Assembly: GCA_001513145.1 (NCBI GenBank)
Contig: LFSP01000029.1
Coordinates: 1 to 40,173, forward strand
Reading direction: 5' to 3'
Length of the DNA stretch: 40,173 nucleotides
Origin: Clostridia bacterium DTU025
Lineage (GTDB): Bacteria; Bacillota; DTU025
In this document: in pieces, positions 7,856 to 29,951 of the stretch
Numbering within the stretch: position 1 is the first letter of the stretch
Layout: every line of letters begins with the position of its first letter
Program-made: the position numbers and the translations under genes
Notes under the pieces: model-generated
Database searches by the model: none
The model's input: only the letters and a program-made list of their open reading frames with translations
What the model was told of the DNA's origin: nothing

Positions 7856-9266
7856 CTAACGCTTGCGACACCTCAGCCAGCTGGGCATATCGTTGTCCTC
7901 CATGGGCCGGACGCTCCGGTAGTAATAGGCCTCATAACGCAAGTCCTTTCTGAGCTCCGCACGGAACTGCGAATCACAACGCGCCCTATCGACGTGCAAC
8001 AGACTCTCCTTCAGCTTGGAGATCTCCCGAAGCAGCATCGGCTGATCGTCAGGGCATTTAGCCGCCAACACGTCGAGCGCCGATACTCGTTCGCCGATGA
8101 TGCGGCAATAGGCGACGTAGTCTCCATCGTCGATGGCTTTGGCGCTTTCGTCCTTCGCGACCGCCGTCCGGATCAGTTTGACGTTGGTGATCACTTCGAA
8201 GTTGGGCTCGCACGGCTCCATCACATCCGACGCCGCAGTCAGGTGCGCCGTCAGCTCAACGCTGGTCTGCGCCAGGCAATGGCACGCGTCAGCGTACGAC
8301 AGCTTCAGCCGCAACAAAGGATGCTCACCGGCAGGCAATGCAGGGAAGCTCAGCTCGACGGCGATATGCTTCTCCTCGTCGGCGAACATGTCGGGCAGAG
8401 CCAGCGTAGCCCCGCTGCCGCTGAAAACGGGCTCATGACCGAAAACCGTCGTCACCTTCGCGCTCGAAAGGCCCTCAAACGTCAGCGTGATGCCCTGCGC
8501 CACCACCGCCAGCAGCCCCTTGAGCTCGCTCTTGAACACGTCCCGGATGTCCTCGGAGTCCTTCACATAGTAGTATGTCCCGCCGCCCGACTCCGCGAGG
8601 GCTATCAGCAGGTCCTCATTGAAACTTGTGCCCACCCCAATGGCGGAAAGCGACACACCCTTGTCCAGCATCGACCGCGCCTTGGCAGCCAGCACCTTCG
8701 GATCGGTGATGCCGCGGTTAGCCATGCCGTCAGTGAGCAACAGCACCCGGTTGACCTGCCCCTCACGGCACTCCTTCAGCGCCTCCTCATGCCCCTTGAG
8801 CAGGCCGCCCGACAGGTTCGTGGATCCGCCGGAGTAAACGTGCGCGATGGCGTCCTTGAGGACGTCCTTATTGGTCACATGCTGGCACGGGAACACCGTT
8901 TTCACATCATTGTCGAACACCGTAACCGACGAAAAAACCCCTGGCCCCCAGCTGGCCAATGAGAAACTGCGCGGAATCTTTCACCTGCTCCAGAGGACGC
9001 CCCGCCATCGATCCGCTTCGGTCAAGCACCATGTGGACGTTGAGCGGCAGCCGTTCGCTCTGCCTTTCAGCTGTGTTCTTGCCCACCAGCCGCACCAGGG
9101 CACATATCGTCCCTTGCCTGTTGGCAGGCAGCATGTGATGCGACAGCTCAACCTCGGCCGTTATCGGACTGACATGGACACTAGCAGCACCGTTGCTCAA
9201 GGCAAGTCCTCCATCCTGTGATAGACTGGGCCTTACCTCACCTATTAGCAACTTGTCGTAGCCCAC
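7856..9266 (-). pseudogene. VWA-domain protein gene, interrupted by a +1 frameshift
   Basis: Two overlapping frames encode one von Willebrand factor A protein of about 469 residues. The first (from GTG 9266) carries the MIDAS motif DRSGS (82-86) and stops at 8907. The second continues the fold with VTVFDND, GGSTNLSGG and LLTDGMANRGI, which supplies the MIDAS Thr and Asp, followed by a beta-rich C-terminal half. The break lies at the homopolymer pair GGGG-TTTTTT (minus strand, 8941-8932). Removing one base there restores a single open frame of exactly 470 codons including the stop. A recent mutation and a homopolymer sequencing error are equally possible. The family is mostly uncharacterised and binds protein partners through a divalent metal. 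Confidence 0.8.
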
Positions 9267-9384
9267 CTTCTTATCTTCTCAACTTGGAGGCTTGACCCGC
9301 ACCCCGAGAATACCCAGGCACTTCCGAACGAGATCCGTGCTGAGACATCGCCCCCTCACCGCCTCCCACGCCATCGCGGTCGCG

Positions 9385-9563: not shown

Positions 9564-9730
9564 CGCCGGCGCAGTGCGCAGCCACACGCCAGCAGCTTGC
9601 AGCGGCCCTGCCGAAAGAGCCGAGGGCCATCGCGTTTCTCTGCACAAAGCAGACGGTTTCAGTGCAGAGAGTCGAAGGTCAGACACAATTGTATGAACCG
9701 CACTACGCAGGCGATGAAGGAGGGCTCCAC

Positions 9731-10729
9731 ATACGTGTTCGTGCAGCGGCACGTGTCGCACTGATTCTGGCAGTGATTCTGGCACTGGGCTGGACCACCC
9801 CCGGCGCCGCATCGACACCATTATCCGGGATCTAGAGATCTCGGTAGCTGCGTTGCGACAACCGGGCACTGCCCCTGCCCATGTCATCGATGCCCTCCAG
9901 TCGTTGCTTGGCAGGCTCAAAGCCCACAGGGAACTGGTTGCTCGACAGCTCGGAGTGGTTGCCGACTATCATCCCTACGATGACCGATCCCGGTCACCTG
10001 CGATCCTACCGGGCGCAAACCGGAGAGACGCTCCACTTCGTTGTGCGAGGTGAGACCAACAACTCGTTGTGCGGAACTGGCACCTATACTGATGACTCCG
10101 ATCTGACCGCGGCCGCTGTGCATTCGCGAGCCTTGAGAGATGGGGAGTGCGGAGTGGTAGAGGTCACGATCCTCCCGGGGCAGAGCACGTATTAGGTGAG
10201 CACGGCGAACTCGGTAACGAGCTCTTCGCACGGCGAATACTCCGGAAGCTCTCGGGTGTCCAGGGCACCGTCGCAGGCCGCTTACGTGCTGCCCGACCTG
10301 GGGAGTCCGTGGGCCTTTGGAGGCGTCACAGGACAGGTGTTCTACTCCAGGATCACCGGATCGACATCGGGCAGAGTGTGGGGAACACAGGTCTACACCA
10401 GCGACTCCGTCTTGGCCGTAGCTGCGGTCCATGCAGGCTTCCTCTCGGCCTGAGGGCTCGATGCCGTCGAGCTCCTCCTGTGCCCGGATGGGTTAGGTCA
10501 AGTGGGTGGGGGCGTTACGAAACGGGGTGCCTTTCATCGCGATCATGAGGCTAGACGTCGGTCTTTCGTAACGAAATCGACACAATGGTCCGTGAGGAAG
10601 GGCTCGAGGGGATTGCGGCGCGATCCGCCGTGTTTCGGATCGTCGGCGATAGCGCGTGTAACTGGGCGTCCTCAATGGAAAGAAAAGGGCCGGCTCCCCA
10701 CGGGCGGCGAGGTGTCGGCATTGTGTTGA
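9731..10729 (+). pseudogene. Decayed secreted protein with two LCCL domains
   Basis: A hydrophobic signal-peptide-like segment (9743-9814, ALILAVILALGW then GAAS) follows GAAGGAGGG, though no standard start codon fits. A helical stretch (IDTIIRDLEISVAALR, about 9812-9990) is in another frame. Two LCCL domains then share one frame. The first has TGETLHFVVRG, TYTDDSDLTAAAVHS, VVEVTILPGQS and NSVTSSSHGEYSGS. The second has TGQVFYSRITGSTSG, VYTSDSVLAVAAVHAG, AVELLLCPDG and GGGVTKRG. The first domain is cut by TAG 10193-10195 and the second by TGA 10451-10453. At least two frameshifts and two stops show the gene is dead. LCCL domains are extracellular modules of uncertain ligand. Confidence 0.75.
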
Positions 10730-11020
10730 TTATGCAACTATGTATGGGCTAGAAGGCACGACTTCATCACAAATGCCCCCGCGAATTGTAACGGACTCAC
10801 CCCGCAGGCTAGTCCATTGGAATGAGGCTTCGCGCGGAGTCGGTCGCCGCGGAGCGGCTGCAGGCCGGCCGGCGCCATCTCACCACAACTAAGCCTGGGC
10901 TCGCGGCGTTTCGGGCAGGCCTGCCAGCGACTAGTATGCGTGACTACTGGTCCAGCACCGTTACGCAGGGGGCCGAATACCCATGTAGCACGCAGACCAC
11001 TGCGTGAGGAGGTGGTCCAT

Positions 11021-12085
11021 ATGGAGAGGGAGCCAGGGAAGGAGCTGGAGCGCGCGCGGAAGATCCAGCAGGAACCGGAGCTGGAGCGCAAGCGGGCGCC
11101 GGGGGTGCCGGACGACGCTCCAGGCGATACGGCTGAAGACGCGGCGGGGGATATCGACCTGGAGCACATGGCGCTGTTCGGCTGCGGTCCGGCGTACGTG
11201 ACCAACAGGAATGACGGCAGCGTGTCAGTTGTCGATCTGAGACTGATTCGGGAGATAGCCAGGATACAGGTGGGCGAGGCTCCGACAACACCGGCGGTCG
11301 GCCCTGACAAGCGGTTCGTCTACGTCTCGAACAGCGATGACAACACGCTTTCTGTCATAAGCACGCTGACGAACACGGTGGTGGAGACCGTAGACCTGAA
11401 CGCCGGAGGCTTCGCGGCCGACTTCCCGTGGGGAGTTGCCGTATCGCCGGACTCGCGGTTCGTGTACGTCGCCAATAGGGGCTCATCCAACGTGTCGGTG
11501 GTGGACGCCAGACGGCTCGCGGTGGTGGCTCAGGTGCCTCTCTCGGCCGGCGGTTTCGACATCGATGTCACGCCCGACGGGGACTTCGCGTACGTGTGCC
11601 TGAGCGGTGTCGGCAGCATGGCCGTGGTGGACCTCAGCACCAACCTACAGGTGAAGACGATCAACGTGTGCGACGCCCCGCCGGACATCGCCATCGCTAG
11701 GCGGAAGCCGCTGGCTTACGTGTCGTGCCCCATCATGCAGGGCTCGGTGCGGGCGATCAACACGAACCTGGCCGAGGCGTCCATGACGTCCATCACGACG
11801 GGCGGATCCCCGGGGTCGATAGCCTTCAACCCCGACGCCACGCTGGCGTACGTGACCAACCTGACCGGGCAGGGGCTTTTCGTCATCGACGTGTTCAGGC
11901 ACGCGCGGGTAGCAACGGTGCCTGTGGGCAACGAGCCGCGTGGCGTCGCCGTGAGCGACAACGGCCTCTTGGCGGTGGTGACCAACACGGATGACTCCAC
12001 CGTGTCGGTGGTGGACATCCGGACCAACACGGTGGTCGGCACAGTGCAGGTGGGCAGCAGGCCGTGGTTCGTAGACATAGCATGA
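11021..12085 (+). CDS. Seven-bladed YVTN-type beta-propeller protein (first of three)
   Basis: The ATG at 11021 follows TGAGGAGGTGG and fixes the start; the longer open frame upstream lacks a ribosome site. Residues 1-50 are highly charged (Glu/Arg/Lys, then Asp) with no signal peptide. Residues 54-354 form seven blades of about 42 residues. Each starts with a strand such as AYVTN, FVYVSN or FAYVC and contains a VSVVD-type strand. The last blade ends almost at the C-terminus, giving one closed seven-bladed propeller. YVTN propellers are usually secreted or S-layer-associated, so the missing signal peptide is notable. Function is unknown. It heads a tandem set of three paralogues. Confidence 0.85.
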   Translation: MEREPGKELERARKIQQEPELERKRAPGVPDDAPGDTAEDAAGDIDLEHMALFGCGPAYVTNRNDGSVSVVDLRLIREIARIQVGEAPTTPAVGPDKRFVYVSNSDDNTLSVISTLTNTVVETVDLNAGGFAADFPWGVAVSPDSRFVYVANRGSSNVSVVDARRLAVVAQVPLSAGGFDIDVTPDGDFAYVCLSGVGSMAVVDLSTNLQVKTINVCDAPPDIAIARRKPLAYVSCPIMQGSVRAINTNLAEASMTSITTGGSPGSIAFNPDATLAYVTNLTGQGLFVIDVFRHARVATVPVGNEPRGVAVSDNGLLAVVTNTDDSTVSVVDIRTNTVVGTVQVGSRPWFVDIA

Positions 12086-12183
12086 GAGCATGAGCCCATG
12101 AGCGAATCGAAGCCAGGAGTCTCTGACAGCGCACGCGCTGCCGGCGCCAACACTCAACCAAAGGCAGGAAAGGAGGGATAGGC

Positions 12184-13143
12184 ATGGACGAGGTCCTTGA
12201 CGATGTGGAAGTGCAGCAGCTGGGCTCACTCGGCTGCGGGACCGCGTACGTGACCAACAGGGAAGATGCCAGTGTGTCTGTGATCGACCTTAACCGGGCC
12301 CAGGAGGTGACCAGAATTCCCGTGGGCACCAGGCCGCAAGCGATCGCCGCCAGTCCCGACAAGAGGTTCGTGTACGTCACCAATTTCAACGATGCCACGC
12401 TGTCGGTGATCAACACGCTAACGAACACAGTTGTGGACACGGTGGGCTTGAACGTCGGGGCGTTCGCGGCGGAGGGTCCAACAGGGGTGGCGGTGACTCC
12501 TGATGGGCGGTTCGTGTACGTGGCCAACATCCAGTCCGACAACCTGTCGGTGGTGGACGCGCGCCGCCTGGCTGTGGTGACAACGGTGCCCATGAGCGCG
12601 CCGCCCGCTGACCTTCGCATCACCGCCGACGGAAACCTGGCCTACGTGACCATGGGAGTGGGAGCCATTGGCTTCATCGGCGTGGTTGACCTCAACACGA
12701 ACCTGCAGGTGAAGGCCATCAGCATCTGTTCCAACCGTACCGGCATCGACATAGCGCCGCGCATGCCCCTGGCCTATCAGGCATGTACCTTCCCCGTGGG
12801 CAGGCTGCATGCCGTCAACACGGACCTCGCCGAACCATCGGCGGAGTCCATCATCACGAATCTGCCGCCAGACCAGATAGCTTTCAACCCCGAAGGCACG
12901 CTGGCATATGTGACCCAGCTCGACGGCAGCAGGCTGTGGGTGGTGGACGTGTTCAGGCACGCGGTGCGGCTGACGATTCCCGTCGGAGGCGGCTCCAGCG
13001 GCGTGAAGGTGAGCGACAACGGCCTGCTGGTTGTCGTAGCCAACTTGGACGACAACACGGTGTCAATAGTGGACGCCCGGACCAACACCGTGGCAGCGAC
13101 AGTCCCAGTGGGCAGCTCGCCGTTTAGGGTCGCCATAGTGTAA
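12184..13143 (+). CDS. Seven-bladed YVTN-type beta-propeller protein (second of three)
   Basis: The ATG at 12184 follows AAAGGAGGGATAGGC. The 319-residue protein is essentially only the propeller: a 14-residue acidic lead, then SLGCGTAYVTN and seven blades with strand pairs such as FVYVTN/LSVIN and FVYVAN/LSVVD. Blade 6 has the same VVDVFRHA phrase as its neighbours (VIDVFRHA), and blade 7 reads NTVSIVDARTNTV, showing recent tandem duplication. No signal peptide or membrane segment is visible. A 98-base gap separates it from the first paralogue, and only 6 to 18 bases lie before the next, so the last two are surely co-transcribed. Function is unknown. Confidence 0.85.
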   Translation: MDEVLDDVEVQQLGSLGCGTAYVTNREDASVSVIDLNRAQEVTRIPVGTRPQAIAASPDKRFVYVTNFNDATLSVINTLTNTVVDTVGLNVGAFAAEGPTGVAVTPDGRFVYVANIQSDNLSVVDARRLAVVTTVPMSAPPADLRITADGNLAYVTMGVGAIGFIGVVDLNTNLQVKAISICSNRTGIDIAPRMPLAYQACTFPVGRLHAVNTDLAEPSAESIITNLPPDQIAFNPEGTLAYVTQLDGSRLWVVDVFRHAVRLTIPVGGGSSGVKVSDNGLLVVVANLDDNTVSIVDARTNTVAATVPVGSSPFRVAIV

Positions 13144-13161
13144 CAGGAGGTGACGAACCCA

Positions 13162-14145
13162 GTGGTGGAGACTACAAAGAACGATTCCGGCGCCCGCGGG
13201 TTCGAGGGCGTCGAGCTGGAAAGCATCGCGGCGGAGGGCCTGGGCGACTGCGGTATCGCGTACGTGCCTTGTTTCCGCGATGACACAGTTTCCGTAGTAG
13301 ACCTCAGGAGGGCTCAGGTCATCACCACCGTCACAGTGGGCCGGGCTCCGGTCAGCGCGACCGCCAGTCCTGACAAGAGGTTCGTGTACGTCACGAATTT
13401 CCTCGGCAACACGCTCTCGGTGGTCAACACCTTCAACAACACGGTGGCTGCAACCATCGACCTCAACGCCGGACCCTTCGCGGCCCAGGGCGCCTCCGGC
13501 GCAGCGGTGTCGCCTGACTCGCGGTTCGTCTACGTCGCCAATTTCCGTACTCCGCGCGTGTCCGTGGTGGACGCCCGCCGGATGGCGGTGACGACCTCGA
13601 TACCCTTGTCCGGTGTATCAACTAAGATCGCGCTTACGCCCGATGGTGCTCTGGCGTATGTGACTCTGCCCAACGACAATGCCGTGGCAGTACTGGATCT
13701 CAACGCTAACCTCCAGGTGAAGACCATAATGGTAGGCGACGATCCGGAGGACATCGCCATAGCACGAAACCGACCTCTGGCATACGTCGCCCTCCAAGGA
13801 GAGGGAGTGCAGGCAGTGAACACCCGCCTGGCGACGTCGGCGGCGACTGTGCTGACGTCCGCCTCCCGTCCAACGGGCGTTGCGTTCAGCCCCGATGGCA
13901 CGTTGGTGTACGTCACCAACCAGCTTACCGCCAACGTGTCCGTGATCGACGTGTTCAGGCATGCCCAGGTGGCGACCATTCCTGTGGGCGAACTCCCTAT
14001 AGGCGTGGAGACCACCGACGACGGCAGGCTGGTGGTGGTCTCGAATTTCTCCGGCGATTCGCTGTCCGTCATCGATACGCGCACAAACACCGTGATAGCC
14101 ACGATCCCAGTGGGCGCAGGGCCGGAGTACCTCGATATCGTTTAG
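13162..14145 (+). CDS. Seven-bladed YVTN-type beta-propeller protein (third of three)
   Basis: The AGGAGGTGA at 13145-13153 serves as ribosome site, so I place the start at GTG 13162 rather than the GTG at 13150 that lies inside it. The 327-residue product has a short acidic lead, then GDCGIAYVPC and seven blades. Signature strands are FVYVTN, FVYVAN, LAYVT, LAYVA and LVYVTN, and blade 6 again has VIDVFRHA. No signal peptide is present. The cysteine near the first blade (GCG or DCG just before AYV) is kept in all three paralogues. Partners may be peptides or proteins, as for other propellers; this is inference. Confidence 0.83.
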   Translation: MVETTKNDSGARGFEGVELESIAAEGLGDCGIAYVPCFRDDTVSVVDLRRAQVITTVTVGRAPVSATASPDKRFVYVTNFLGNTLSVVNTFNNTVAATIDLNAGPFAAQGASGAAVSPDSRFVYVANFRTPRVSVVDARRMAVTTSIPLSGVSTKIALTPDGALAYVTLPNDNAVAVLDLNANLQVKTIMVGDDPEDIAIARNRPLAYVALQGEGVQAVNTRLATSAATVLTSASRPTGVAFSPDGTLVYVTNQLTANVSVIDVFRHAQVATIPVGELPIGVETTDDGRLVVVSNFSGDSLSVIDTRTNTVIATIPVGAGPEYLDIV

Positions 14146-23071: not shown

Positions 23072-24142
23072 TCAGCCGCCTATCCTCACCAGCGGCTGTG
23101 CCTTCCAGTTACCGTCTGCGCCCCTGATTGCGCCGCTTTCGGGCTTCGCCGCCACCGCCTGGCGGATGATGTCGGCGATCGCCGCGTCGTCCGCCCCACC
23201 ACGCAAGGCGCACTTGACATCGATGGTGGCATCCGAAAGCAGGCAGGGCCTGAACATTCCATCAGCTGTGAGACGAATCCTGTTGCACCGCACGCAGAAC
23301 TCGTCTCCTTCGCGGGAGATGAAGCCCACCCGACCCTTCGCGCCACGAAGCCGCACATACGCTGCTGGGCCGGCATCCATCGCGGGCCCAGCGCCGGCCT
23401 TCACTGGTTCGGGCGTGGCCCCGGGCTGAGCCTCTGCTCCCATGGCCATCACGCGCCGCCGCACTTCGTCGATGGGTACCACGTGCTCCTCGCCGTATAC
23501 CCCGCCGTTTCCCCAGAAGGGCATGAACTCGATGAACCGCACGTCCCACGGATGCTCCAGGGTGAGAGCGGCCATGCTCTCGATCTCGTCGGAGTTGATG
23601 CCCTTCAGTACCACGGTGTTGATCTTCACCGGACACAGCCCAGCGCGTTCCGCGGCGGCGATGCCGCGAAGCACGGCCCCGAGGTCGCCGCCCCGCGTGA
23701 GCTCTGCAAACGTTTCAGGGCGTAGCGTATCGAGACTGACATTCACACGCTTAAGCCCGGCAGCCGCGAGCTCCTGCGCATAGCCTTCCAGCACCGTGCC
23801 GTTGGTCGTTAGGGCGATGTCGCGTATCCCTTCGATCGCCGCCACCTGCCGCACCAGGCTCACCACGCCCTTGCGCGCCAGGGGCTCGCCTCCGGTGATG
23901 CGCACCTTGGTGATGCCCATCCCCGCCGCCACCCGCACCACCCTGGCGATCTCCTCCATGGTGAGCATGTCGGAGTGCCGCTTGAGCTCTATGCCCTCTG
24001 CCGGCATGCAGTACACACATCTGAAGTTGCATCGGTCCGTCACCGACACGCGCATGTAGGTTATCGGCCGGCCGCAGGCGTCGACAAGCTGCGTAGACTG
24101 CTGCGTAGACTGCTGCGTAGACTGCTGCGTCAACCTCGCCAC
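23072..24142 (-). CDS. moaA: GTP 3',8-cyclase MoaA (radical SAM)
   Basis: MoaA rearranges GTP in the first step of molybdopterin synthesis. C38, C42 and C45 of DRCNFRCVYCMP hold the radical-SAM 4Fe-4S cluster. A second cluster is supplied by CVRCNRIRL and the Cys of FRPCLLSD. The protein ends in Gly-Gly, the C-terminal tail needed for catalysis in MoaA. The GTG start at 24142 overlaps the preceding moeA/PBP gene by 13 bases and follows GGAAAGG. Residues 5-18 are an odd QQST repeat made by a 12-bp tandem repeat; the enzyme core begins at about residue 19. Length is 356, slightly long for the family because of this tail. Confidence 0.96.
   Translation of the reverse strand: MARLTQQSTQQSTQQSTQLVDACGRPITYMRVSVTDRCNFRCVYCMPAEGIELKRHSDMLTMEEIARVVRVAAGMGITKVRITGGEPLARKGVVSLVRQVAAIEGIRDIALTTNGTVLEGYAQELAAAGLKRVNVSLDTLRPETFAELTRGGDLGAVLRGIAAAERAGLCPVKINTVVLKGINSDEIESMAALTLEHPWDVRFIEFMPFWGNGGVYGEEHVVPIDEVRRRVMAMGAEAQPGATPEPVKAGAGPAMDAGPAAYVRLRGAKGRVGFISREGDEFCVRCNRIRLTADGMFRPCLLSDATIDVKCALRGGADDAAIADIIRQAVAAKPESGAIRGADGNWKAQPLVRIGG
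24091..24130 (-). repeat. 12-bp tandem repeat inside the moaA start
   Basis: Three exact copies of a 12-base unit (GCGTAGACTGCT on the plus strand) at 24091-24102, 24103-24114 and 24115-24126 are followed by a partial fourth. The unit length keeps the moaA frame and encodes QQST repeats. The array abuts the stop of the upstream gene. Confidence 0.9.
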
Positions 24143-26145
24143 ACAACCTTTCCGGTGTCGGCCACGTTGTAGCCGCCCATGGCCAGCACCGCCTGCTTGA
24201 ACTCGTCCGATCGGATGACTGTGAGCAGCTTCTGCATCATCTCCGACTCCAGGAACTCCACGGTGGTGAGCAGGTCGTACTGCTCCGTGCCCACCGGGAT
24301 GAAGTCGAGCCCCAGAGCCTTCGCCGCGCCCGCGATCCCCAGCCCCACGTCGGCTGCCCCATTTGCCACCGACGCCGCCACGCCCATGTGGGTGTACTCC
24401 TCGTGGGTGTAGCCCTTCACCTGCTCAGGATCGATTCCGGCCTTGGCCAGCTCCATGTCAAGCAGCACGCGGGTGCCGGCGCCGCGCTGCCTGTTGACAA
24501 ACACCACGTCTTCGCGGGCAAGGTCAGCGAAGTCCTTGATGCCCTTGGGGTTGTCAGGACGGACTATGAATCCCTGCTCGCGATGAACCAGGTTCACCAA
24601 GGCGTAGTCCTCCGCCTTCAGCAGCCGCTTCACGTAAGGCACGTTGTATTCGCCGGTCTCCTCGTCGATGAGGTGAGTGCCGGCTATGTGCGCCTCACCG
24701 CGGCGCATGGCCATGATGCCGCCCATGCTGCCCACATGCGCCGACGACAGCGCCAGGCCGGGATAGGCCCGGGCAAGGAACGTCGACAGGATGTCCAGCG
24801 CCAAGTCGTGGCTGCCGATGGCAACTATCGTCCTTCTTATCTCGTGTAGACTCCGCAACAGGTGCACCCGCACCCATGCGCCCTCGTCTACACCCTGGGC
24901 GTCAGGTGGAACGCGCACGTAGCCGTCGGCCTTAACCAAAGACATTATCGCCCCAGCGCCGCGGGCCAGCGGGGTTACCACCAGCCTGCCGCCTACATCG
25001 CCCACCTTGACGCGCACGAACTCCTCGACTCCAGGAGTCGACACGATGCGCCGCGTCGCGCTGGCCTCCACGGTGGGGAGGGGCTCCAGTGGCTGCGCCA
25101 AGAGCCTCGCCATCAGCGGCCTCAGGAACAGCTCGCACGCCAGCGATGCAGAAACGGGATACCCGGGCACGCCGATGAACGGGCGTGCCGCCGGACGCCC
25201 TTCGCCGGCCGGCCCCTCCACGATCCCCAGAATCGTGGGTTTGCCGGGTTTGATGGCCACGCCGTGCACGATCACGCGGCCAAGCTTCTCCACGACGGCG
25301 CTGGTGTAGTCCTCGCTGCCTGCAGACGAGCCTGCGTTGACGATGACGATATCAGCGCTGGCTGCCGCGGCCCTGACCGCCTCAGCGATATCACCGAAGT
25401 CGTCCGGCACGATTGGGCTGAAGGACGGCTCGCCGCCGCATTCCACCACGAACCCGCCGATGATCTGTGAGTTGAACTCAACGATATCGCCCGGCCGGAG
25501 CTGCGAGCCCGGGGCCACCAGCTCGTTACCGGTGGGGATGATGACAACCCGAGGGCGACGGCGCACTTCCACCTCGGTCACCCCAGCGGCCAGCAGGGCG
25601 CCGAGATCCGCCGGGCGGATCCCGTGGTTCTCAGGCAAGATGAGCTCCGTGGCGACTATGTCCTCGCCCACGGTGCGCACGTGCTGCCAGGGTTTAGCCG
25701 GGGCTATGATAGTGACAGACTCGTCATCCGCATGCACCAGGTCTTCCACCATGATCACGGCATCGCATCCGAACGGAAGCGGGTCGCCGGTGTCCACCAT
25801 CACCGCGTATGACCCCTCGCATAGCCCTTCGTACGGCCCTTTCGCCGCGTCAGAGCCCTTCTTCATCAGCGGCAGAGTCACCGGATTGCGCTCGCTGGCC
25901 GCGAAGGTGAAGGACGACTTGACGGCCACGCCGTCCATGGCACACGCGTGGTAGTGGGGAGATGAGATCTTGGCGAACACCGGGGCTGCAGTGATGCGGC
26001 CCAAGGCGTTTACGTCCACGCGGATGGTCTCTGCCGACAGCGGGCTCAGGACTCCCTGTTCATCCAGGGCTTCGAAGAATCGGCTTACCGCTTCGCTCAG
26101 AGGGGTCTCGGTCAGATACACGTTGCGCTTGATGCTATCCTTCAC
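24130..26145 (-). CDS. MoeA-type molybdopterin molybdenumtransferase fused to a periplasmic-binding-protein-like domain
   Basis: Residues 1-400 are a full MoeA (PHYHACAMDGVAV, VNAGSSAGSEDYTSAVV, GVPGYPVSASLACELFL), which inserts metal into adenylated molybdopterin. Residues 430-671 are a PBP-like domain (HDLALDILSTFLA, GSMGGIMAMRRGEAHIAG, LVNRQRGAGTR-like VFVNRQRGAGTRVLL). This domain is related to the ModE/TupA oxyanion-binding fold and is known as the C-terminal part of such fusions. I place the start at GTG 26145, seven bases after GGAGGTGA; the GTG at 26160 lies before that site. A domain binding molybdate or tungstate next to the insertase suggests metal channelling or selection, which is inference. 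It follows a stand-alone moeA by 5 bases. Confidence 0.9.
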   Translation of the reverse strand: MKDSIKRNVYLTETPLSEAVSRFFEALDEQGVLSPLSAETIRVDVNALGRITAAPVFAKISSPHYHACAMDGVAVKSSFTFAASERNPVTLPLMKKGSDAAKGPYEGLCEGSYAVMVDTGDPLPFGCDAVIMVEDLVHADDESVTIIAPAKPWQHVRTVGEDIVATELILPENHGIRPADLGALLAAGVTEVEVRRRPRVVIIPTGNELVAPGSQLRPGDIVEFNSQIIGGFVVECGGEPSFSPIVPDDFGDIAEAVRAAAASADIVIVNAGSSAGSEDYTSAVVEKLGRVIVHGVAIKPGKPTILGIVEGPAGEGRPAARPFIGVPGYPVSASLACELFLRPLMARLLAQPLEPLPTVEASATRRIVSTPGVEEFVRVKVGDVGGRLVVTPLARGAGAIMSLVKADGYVRVPPDAQGVDEGAWVRVHLLRSLHEIRRTIVAIGSHDLALDILSTFLARAYPGLALSSAHVGSMGGIMAMRRGEAHIAGTHLIDEETGEYNVPYVKRLLKAEDYALVNLVHREQGFIVRPDNPKGIKDFADLAREDVVFVNRQRGAGTRVLLDMELAKAGIDPEQVKGYTHEEYTHMGVAASVANGAADVGLGIAGAAKALGLDFIPVGTEQYDLLTTVEFLESEMMQKLLTVIRSDEFKQAVLAMGGYNVADTGKVVWRG

Positions 26146-26150
26146 GTCCT

Positions 26151-27386
26151 TCACCTCCACAAGTGAACGGTGACGGTGTCACCTTTCAGCACGCCCTCAG
26201 ACTCAGATGGGATCCTGGCCACTCCATCCGCGCTGACCAGGCCGGATATCAGGGCCGACTTGGAAAACAGCGGCTCAGCCCAAAGCTGGCCATCGCGTTC
26301 CACGATCTTCACCGCCACGAAATCCTCTCTTCCTGCGGCACTCGCCACGTTCGCTGCAATTCGAGCGTTCACCCGGCGCCCCACCGGCCCGCTCCATCCC
26401 ATCCACCTGGCGATGGCCGGCTCCACCAGGAGCCGGAATATGTTAAGGCATGAGGCCGGGTGGCCTGGCAGGCCGAACACGGGCTTACCGCCGGCCACGG
26501 CGATTATCGTGGGCTTGCCGGGCTTCACGGCGATGCCGTGCACCAACACCCCGGGCTCGCCCAGCGCCTCGATGGCCTCCCGCGTGTAGTCGCGCGAGCC
26601 GATGGAGCTGCCGCCTGACACGATCAGCATGTCGCTTTCCGCCAGCGCTCCGCGGAGGGCCGCAAGGAGAATCTCGAAGTTGTCGCGGACTATCCCATAC
26701 AGCTTCGGCCTGGCTCCCGCCGCCTTGGCTGCCGCGTAAAGTGAATATGAGTTCATGTCTCGCACCTGGCCCGGCGCCGGCTGTTCGCCCACGTCCACCA
26801 GCTCGTCTCCAGTGGAGATGATGCCCACCCGCGGGCGCGCCGACACCTCCACCTCGCACATGCCCACAGCGCCCAGTGCTGCTATGTCGTGTTCGCGCAG
26901 CAGCCGCCCCTTAGGCAGGAGCAGCCCGCCGCTGGCGACATCCTCGTCCGGGGCCACCACGTTCTCGCCTGGCGCCACAGGCCGCAACACCGCCACGGTG
27001 GCGTCGTCGACCATCTCGGTGTGCTCCATCATCACCACAGCGTCTGCCCCTTCAGGGAGCATGGCGCCGGTGGCCACGCGCATGCACGAGTGCCTGGGTA
27101 GCGTGCCTTCCGCCGCGCGCCCCATGGGCACCTCACCCGCCAACGAAAGCAGCGCCGGCAGAGCATCGGAGGCGCCGAAGGTGTCGGCGGCGCGCACAGC
27201 GAACCCGTCCATGGTCGACCTGATGAACCCTGGCAGGTCGACGGGACTGTGAACGTCGTGCGCCAGCCGCCTGCCAATTGCCTCCGTCAGTCTGACGGTT
27301 TCCGAGCCGTGCGGGCCTTCCTCAAGATAGCTACACAGCCGTGCCCATGCCTCGTCACTTGGAACCAGCGACAGAAAAAGCGACAT
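26151..27386 (-). CDS. moeA: Molybdopterin molybdenumtransferase MoeA
   Basis: The 411-residue protein has the three usual MoeA regions: an N-terminal domain with STMDGFAVRA, the MogA-like domain with ISTGDEL and SGGSSIGSRDYTREAI, and a C-terminal beta-barrel domain. GLPGHPASCLNIF is the conserved C-terminal Pro-Gly loop. It inserts molybdate or tungstate into adenylated molybdopterin. The ATG at 27386 lies inside the end of tupC (32-base overlap), so translation is coupled. Having two MoeA homologues in a row is a known arrangement in organisms that use both tungsten and molybdenum, and may let each handle one metal. Confidence 0.94.
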   Translation of the reverse strand: MSLFLSLVPSDEAWARLCSYLEEGPHGSETVRLTEAIGRRLAHDVHSPVDLPGFIRSTMDGFAVRAADTFGASDALPALLSLAGEVPMGRAAEGTLPRHSCMRVATGAMLPEGADAVVMMEHTEMVDDATVAVLRPVAPGENVVAPDEDVASGGLLLPKGRLLREHDIAALGAVGMCEVEVSARPRVGIISTGDELVDVGEQPAPGQVRDMNSYSLYAAAKAAGARPKLYGIVRDNFEILLAALRGALAESDMLIVSGGSSIGSRDYTREAIEALGEPGVLVHGIAVKPGKPTIIAVAGGKPVFGLPGHPASCLNIFRLLVEPAIARWMGWSGPVGRRVNARIAANVASAAGREDFVAVKIVERDGQLWAEPLFSKSALISGLVSADGVARIPSESEGVLKGDTVTVHLWR

Positions 27387-28857: not shown

Positions 28858-29727
28858 CTACTTTCCGAGGTCCTCCACGTTCTTGCCTGCGTCAGGGAAG
28901 AACAGTGGAGATCCGTACTTGTCTACGCCGAAGGTGCTGATGATCTCCTGGACCTTAGGCGACACCATGAACTCCACGAAAGCCTGTGCGCCAGGAGCGT
29001 TCACCTTGTCGAACTTCTCGGGGTTCACCTGCATGACGTGATATATGTTGAGAAGGATGGCGTCGCCCTCCACAAGTATTTCAAGGTCCAGAGTGTTCCT
29101 GAGAGAGAGGTAGGTGCCGCGGTCAGTGAGCGTGTAAGCTTCCTTCTCAGAAGCGATGCTCAGGGTGCGGCCCATGCCCGCGCCGGCCTCGATATACCAA
29201 TCTCCATCAGGGGAGACGCCCAGCTTGCCCCAAACCTCCTTCTCCTTCTTATGGGTTCCGGAGTCGTCGCCGCGCGACACGAAGGAAGACTGCGAGCTGG
29301 CTATCTTGCCGAAGGCGTCAGCGGCTGACTTGAGGCCGCGCACTCCGGCGGGATCACCTGGGGGCCCCACGATGATGAAGTCGTTGTGCATCACCAGCTG
29401 GCGGTTGACCACGTCGCCCGCCTCCACCAGCTCCAGCTCCGAGGAGGGAGCGTGGCACAGGAGGACGTCGGCCTCACCGCGGCTGCCCAGGGCGAGGGCC
29501 TGCCCGGTTCCGACGGCGATGGTCTTCACCAGGTAGCCGGTTTGCTGTTCGAAGATGGGGATCAGAACGTCAAGCAGACCGGTGTCGGCTGTGCTGGTGG
29601 TGGTTGCGAGGATAACCTCGCGGACGGCTGGCGCCTGTGCGCCGACGGAGAAGGATGTGAGCAACAGGATGGACACGAGGGAGACAAACAGGGTGTTCAG
29701 GACCGAACTCGTACGCGCTGCGTGCAA
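28858..29727 (-). CDS. tupA: Tungstate-binding protein of the TupABC importer
   Basis: The mature part begins near VREVILATTTSTADTGLLD, and the TTST-DTGLLD motif is diagnostic of TupA. GTGQALALGSRGEADVLLCHAP and FVSRGDDSGTHKKE follow; both shape the oxyanion pocket. The family binds tungstate with very high affinity and strong preference over molybdate. I place the start at TTG 29727, ten bases after AAAGGAG, giving a 289-residue precursor with a signal peptide (VLNTLFVSLVSILLLTSF then GAQA). An ATG at 29732, better spaced to the ribosome site, is out of frame. The longer in-frame extension upstream lies within the riboswitch and is not coding. Confidence 0.88.
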   Translation of the reverse strand: MHAARTSSVLNTLFVSLVSILLLTSFSVGAQAPAVREVILATTTSTADTGLLDVLIPIFEQQTGYLVKTIAVGTGQALALGSRGEADVLLCHAPSSELELVEAGDVVNRQLVMHNDFIIVGPPGDPAGVRGLKSAADAFGKIASSQSSFVSRGDDSGTHKKEKEVWGKLGVSPDGDWYIEAGAGMGRTLSIASEKEAYTLTDRGTYLSLRNTLDLEILVEGDAILLNIYHVMQVNPEKFDKVNAPGAQAFVEFMVSPKVQEIISTFGVDKYGSPLFFPDAGKNVEDLGK

Positions 29728-29732
29728 AGCAT
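29697..29732 (-). other. Out-of-frame 11-codon frame overlapping the tupA start
   Basis: The ATG at 29732 lies five bases after the AAAGGAG of the riboswitch box, the ideal spacing. Its frame codes only MLCTQRVRVRS and stops at 29697, inside the tupA signal-peptide region. It may be a leader peptide, a decoy start, or the true tupA start displaced by an indel or a sequencing error. Confidence 0.4.
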
Positions 29733-29896
29733 GTACACTCCTTTCCAAACATGGGAGGCCTGTCGATTTCCCGGCAGACCCTTGAGGTGCCACAGCCGCC
29801 ACGCCGTTGCAGCAGCGCGCCGCAGCAGCGCCGCGCAGCCCAGCACCTCGCGGCCAGACGCCATCCCGTACGGGTGCAGGCGTTCAGGCTCGGAGG
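29733..29896 (-). ncRNA. Molybdenum/tungsten cofactor riboswitch (Moco RNA motif)
   Basis: The tupA leader starts with CTCCGAGCC (29895-29887) and ends with GGCCTCCC (29760-29753), then TGGAAAGGAGTGTAC, in the same order and spacing as the Moco RNA ahead of E. coli moaA, which from memory ends GCCUCCC, six bases, GGAAAGGUGUAC, AUG. The middle holds GC-rich helices, including GAGGTGC (about 29841-29835) facing GGCACCTC near 29787-29780, and a GGGAAAT apical element. The 3' box contains the ribosome site, so ligand binding probably hides it and turns translation off. Placement before tungstate uptake and moa/moe genes fits feedback by Moco or Wco. Call is by sequence pattern; no covariance search was run. 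Confidence 0.82.
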
Positions 29897-29951
29897 ATTC
29901 CCCCATATTTCGTTGATAAGAGATAATAAGCGTAAGCTTCCCTCAAGCACC

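Follow-up and report, generated by a model that had tools for sequence, protein, structure and literature searches.

LCCL domains in cochlin and in bacterial proteins

One known counterpart of the domains described here is the LCCL domain of cochlin (1jbi). The classical LCCL module has four conserved cysteines, one of them within the motif YxxxSxxCxAAVHxGVI, as given in PMC10892792. Cochlin joins one LCCL domain to two VWA domains in one chain, whereas the intact bacterial homologues considered below carry two LCCL domains on a helical stalk.

In bacteria, 66 LCCL loci were collected, spread over many phyla. The motif cysteine was absent in 35 of them and present in 27, and the remaining 4 had no motif by the pattern used. 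Many of the cysteine-less loci belong to Opitutaceae and Bacillota. Thirty bacterial LCCL proteins were scanned for domains. LCCL was found in all 30, accompanied by Ig-like domains in 4, Laminin_G_3 in 3, and PKD and S-layer homology domains in one each. A TIR domain and a protein kinase domain were also seen, each in 1/30. No functional study of a bacterial LCCL protein was found in the literature searched, which consisted of open-licence papers, including passages of PMC10892792 and PMC13271388.

The locus described here lies in a window of 40,173 nucleotides (the whole stretch of DNA analysed), contig LFSP01000029.1 of Clostridia bacterium DTU025. It is very probably the pseudogene of an exported-type tandem-LCCL protein, of which related bacteria keep intact copies. 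The LCCL proteins of Opitutaceae, Myxococcales, Nostoc, Planctomycetota and others resemble those of the window lineage in looking exported and in having one to three LCCL motifs, and the Opitutaceae-type copies likewise lack the motif cysteine. They differ in that many proteins of the other phyla are larger, with Ig-like or Laminin_G_3 domains.

Intact tandem-LCCL genes in related genomes

The genome that contains the window comprises 2.0 Mb in 52 contigs and is 96.7% complete, with 1.4% contamination. A profile search of this genome returned no intact LCCL copy; only two broken matches, both at the window locus, exceeded the cut-off. A third match (E 0.19) fell below it. At E values up to 1, LCCL matches also appeared in 4 of 14 control genomes, none of them over the cut-off. 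LCCL was matched in 5 of the 61 genomes searched as relatives, the window genome counted, and the same 5 account for all matches in the class, which has 12 genomes. The preliminary description of the locus had called the domain patchy in bacteria. This agrees with the distribution among relatives, but the domain is not rare, as the 66 loci from many phyla indicate.

That description also suggested looking for an intact homologue in related genomes, and such homologues exist in four of the seven other genomes of the family (G001, G002, G004 and G005), where the tandem LCCL domains are read in one frame with no stops. G004 was matched to DBQN01000026.1 (Firmicutes bacterium UBA1393), G001 to DHON01000078.1 (UBA5389) and G005 to JAGVTS010000063.1 (THP_Bin_8). 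The sister genus g4 gave no LCCL match in its three genomes. The intact proteins have about 290-300 residues (typically about 294): a hydrophobic N-terminus is followed by a helical hairpin of ~55 residues and then by the two LCCL domains. NCBIfam returned no name for the LCCL protein.

Residues 2-294 of the G004 protein were modelled with a mean pLDDT of 88.4 and a pTM of 0.77. The predicted structure begins with an N-terminal helix, which is followed by a helical hairpin and a pair of beta-rich domains. The predicted N-terminal helix spans residues 2-24, and the N-terminus is hydrophobic. The best structural match of the model was 1jbi, the LCCL domain of cochlin, with Z 13.4 and an rmsd of 1.9 A across 95 residues. 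From rank 3 downwards, the helical part matched helical bundles with middling Z scores, and these hits were set aside.

The decayed copy in the window

The remains of the gene were located by profile search, by tblastn with the intact proteins and by alignment, and are listed below. All lie on the forward strand.

9716-9724, +, Shine-Dalgarno-like GAAGGAGGG, identical in the intact G004 gene (pairwise DNA alignment)
9731-9826, +, remnant of the start region and of a hydrophobic signal-peptide-like segment, frame +2 (tblastn from G004 residue 1)
9811-9960, +, remnant of the helical region, frame +1 (tblastn with the helical segment of G004, 50% identical, E 1.7e-11)
9965-10258, +, LCCL domain 1, frame +2 (tblastn; PF03815 profile match at 10052-10246, 43.6 bits)
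10193-10195, +, TAG in frame, within LCCL domain 1 (sequence, translation and genome profile search)
10280-10486, +, front part of LCCL domain 2, frame +2 (tblastn to 10486; PF03815 profile match at 10364-10456, 28.7 bits)
10451-10453, +, TGA in frame, within LCCL domain 2 (sequence, translation and genome profile search)
10491-10529, +, weakly matching tail of LCCL domain 2, frame +3, containing another stop (local alignment)

The frame that runs from 9881 onwards, translated with X at the stops, matches PF03815 (LCCL) twice, with 68.5 bits in all and E 5.6e-19. Its two open pieces scored 29.6 and 28.3 bits separately; the curated cut-off of the family is 22.6 bits. The profile check proposed in the preliminary description thus returned a match. 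Its reading was also borne out in that the two LCCL copies share a frame interrupted by TAG and TGA, and both copies lie over the cut-off. The intact G004 protein aligned by tblastn to the window in frame +2 from its residue 1 at 9731 through 10486, with 208 bits and E 1.3e-63. The best of 200 shuffles of the same protein reached 31.2 bits, so the match is far above chance level.

Both window domains and the intact copies contain the conserved histidine motif AAVHxG. In place of the motif cysteine, the two window domains have T and A, and the intact copies have A or S. The LCCL fold, a central helix between two sheets, is that of the model of the intact G004 homologue and not of the window copy itself. 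By profile, histidine motif and this predicted fold, the window domains are members of PF03815. They share with cochlin a profile score over the cut-off, the fold and the AAVH motif, and differ from it in having no cysteine in YxxxSxxCxAAVHxG and in belonging to a dead copy. Because the motif cysteine is replaced, they are LCCL homologues and not the classical disulfide-bonded module.

The 5' part of the gene can be followed to its beginning. The sequence GAAGGAGGG is probably the ribosome-binding site. The remnant at 9731-9826 is identical to G004 in 16 of 31 residues, and in the DNA alignment the position that corresponds to the G004 start is no longer a start codon, a lesion overlooked in the preliminary description. 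The helical parts of G002 and G005 match the window in frame +1, as that of G004 does, and the frame consequently shifts from +2 to +1 and back to +2 around the helical region. The signal peptide and the helical region had both been placed outside the LCCL frame; this holds for the helical region, while the signal-peptide-like remnant lies in frame +2 with the LCCL domains.

At the 3' end, the remnant of the second LCCL domain comprises 13 residues and carries its own stop. In local alignment its score was reached by 4, 0 and 0 of 1000 shuffles for G001, G005 and G002, and by 152/1000 for the G004 tail. Homology to the intact proteins was looked for in the segment from about 10530 to 10729 and none was seen. 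The gene had been drawn as extending to 10729; its homology stops near 10529, and the rest is the run-out of an open frame.

Altogether the window copy has at least six lesions within about 800 bases. The intact genes of the family resemble it in the hydrophobic N-terminus, the helical region and the two LCCL domains without motif cysteines, and differ in having one open frame without stops and other neighbours. The reading of a dead gene in the preliminary description is supported: multiple lesions end the frame, intact homologues exist elsewhere and the window genome has no other copy.

Divergence and age of the decay

Over the LCCL span, the window copy is 59.8% identical to G004 (104/174) and 51-52% identical to the other intact copies. 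Among these, G004 shares 57-63% with the others (62-63% with G001/G005). The intact pairs G001-G005, G001-G002 and G005-G002 gave dN/dS values of 0.24-0.25 by the Nei-Gojobori method, which indicates that the intact copies are under purifying selection. Pairs of G004 with the other intact copies were excluded from this comparison, their dS being near saturation. For the window-G004 pair, dN/dS was 0.36 (95% interval 0.23-0.54), compared with 0.25 (0.16-0.37) in the intact pairs, and the intervals overlap. The window pair lay above G001-G002 in 1805 of 2000 bootstraps. The raised dN/dS of the window copy is only suggestive.

Changes found in the window copy alone affect 21 of the 90 residues common to the other four; the corresponding counts are 9/78 for G004 and 10/79 for G002, and since the rows of G001 and G005 are near-identical, counts across the intact copies are not independent. 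Codon-position counts over the pieces did not separate the window copy from the intact ones. The divergence pattern is consistent with selection on the gene during most of its history, followed by release. On a rough reading, the release may have come late on the branch of the window copy. Of the "recent loss" proposed earlier, the loss stands, and its recency is only relative, given the 60% identity to G004 and the overlapping dN/dS intervals.

Genomic neighbourhood

Three further features of the window were noted.

7856-9278, -, VWA-domain gene, separate from the LCCL gene; N-terminal part in frame -2, the rest in frame -3
10940-14145, +, YVTN/YNCE-type beta-propeller genes, three in tandem, each with a closing repeat of its own
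29722-29907, -, molybdenum/tungsten cofactor riboswitch RF01055 (63.7 bits)

The VWA gene adjoins the LCCL gene on the opposite strand, and a cochlin-like single chain of LCCL and VWA domains was not found. The longer piece of the VWA gene scored 58.1 bits against Pfam VWA. Its homologues align in two frames, which places a frame break near 8934-8965. They are read in one frame in G003, G005 and G008; LCCL is present in G005 as well, but in neither of the other two. The break in the VWA gene may mark a second gene in decay, or it may be one sequencing slip.

When the window DNA was compared with ten stretches from relatives, matches were confined to the genes for LCCL, VWA and RapZ and to one patch of ABC type. 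Around the LCCL gene, the neighbours vary among the genomes compared, and the context therefore gives no hint of function; synteny was rejected as a functional clue, as the gene occupies different places across the relatives. The segment 10940-14145 was also considered as one broken beta-propeller gene, which was rejected because each frame ends in its own closing repeat. The contig with the RF01055 riboswitch carries several molybdopterin genes; one of them, at 24130-26160, encodes a fusion of MoeA with a PBP-like domain.

Alternative explanations

An intact gene could have been broken by assembly or sequencing errors in a metagenome-derived genome such as this one, which consists of 52 contigs and whose relatives have named records that are mostly metagenome-assembled. 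The single frame shift in the adjoining VWA gene points the same way, and any lesion taken singly could be an error, one assembly being available. The lesions are, however, of different kinds and number at least six in about 800 bases; the lost start codon and the two in-frame stops are not frame shifts, and window-only changes at conserved residues are in excess (21/90). The other conserved genes of the contig, e.g., F_bP_aldolase, RapZ, MoeA (twice) and radical SAM, match their profiles over the whole length in a single frame, which argues against a generally faulty assembly. Errors as the whole cause are therefore improbable. It would be less probable still that the locus remains in use, either through a piece such as 9881-10195 or as a whole by stop read-through and frameshifting. 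In favour of such use, the LCCL frame is readable over long stretches, and both strands of this G+C-rich DNA contain open frames. Against it, the LCCL part is severed from the signal peptide and the start codon, and each of the two LCCL domains is itself interrupted; expression would require several separate recoding events, and the intact relatives are read in one plain frame. The several kinds of lesion, together with intact homologues elsewhere, are the reason why the locus is read as a pseudogene.

The identity of the domains was weighed as well. Rxt3-like domains (PF08642) also scored over the cut-off on the X-read sequence (49 vs 29.9 bits), and Rxt3 chains were the next structural matches of the G004 model (8i03, Z 10.7). 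LCCL was higher throughout (68.5 bits; 1jbi, Z 13.4), and all 30 scanned bacterial LCCL proteins match both PF03815 and PF08642, which means that the two families overlap. An Rxt3-like assignment in place of LCCL is hardly credible.

Putative function and significance

The intact protein would be exported by means of its hydrophobic N-terminus, acting as signal peptide or anchor, and the helical stalk would present it at the cell surface. Its paired LCCL domains may bind a wall or envelope polymer, or else a partner surface. This role in export, display and envelope binding is suggested by analogy, and the label of surface protein, used in the preliminary description, is likewise putative, being drawn from the signal peptide and from the domains that accompany LCCL in other bacteria. 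With its start codon lost and with frame shifts and stops gained, the window gene would give no such product. The loss may have been neutral or favoured. A bolder proposal is that the cysteine-free LCCL domain is a surface recognition module of anaerobic-type Bacillota, lost here together with the adjoining VWA surface gene, so that cochlin-like modules, encoded on separate genes, would have been discarded as one surface function; we consider this unlikely.

The gene decay seen here is ordinary in kind, and what was lost is a probable surface protein of putative function. The locus offers a clear case of how a putatively exported LCCL protein was lost step by step inside a single small bacterial class. 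It also adds intact, cysteine-free tandem-LCCL proteins, whose purification would allow the binding partners of bacterial LCCL domains to be sought.
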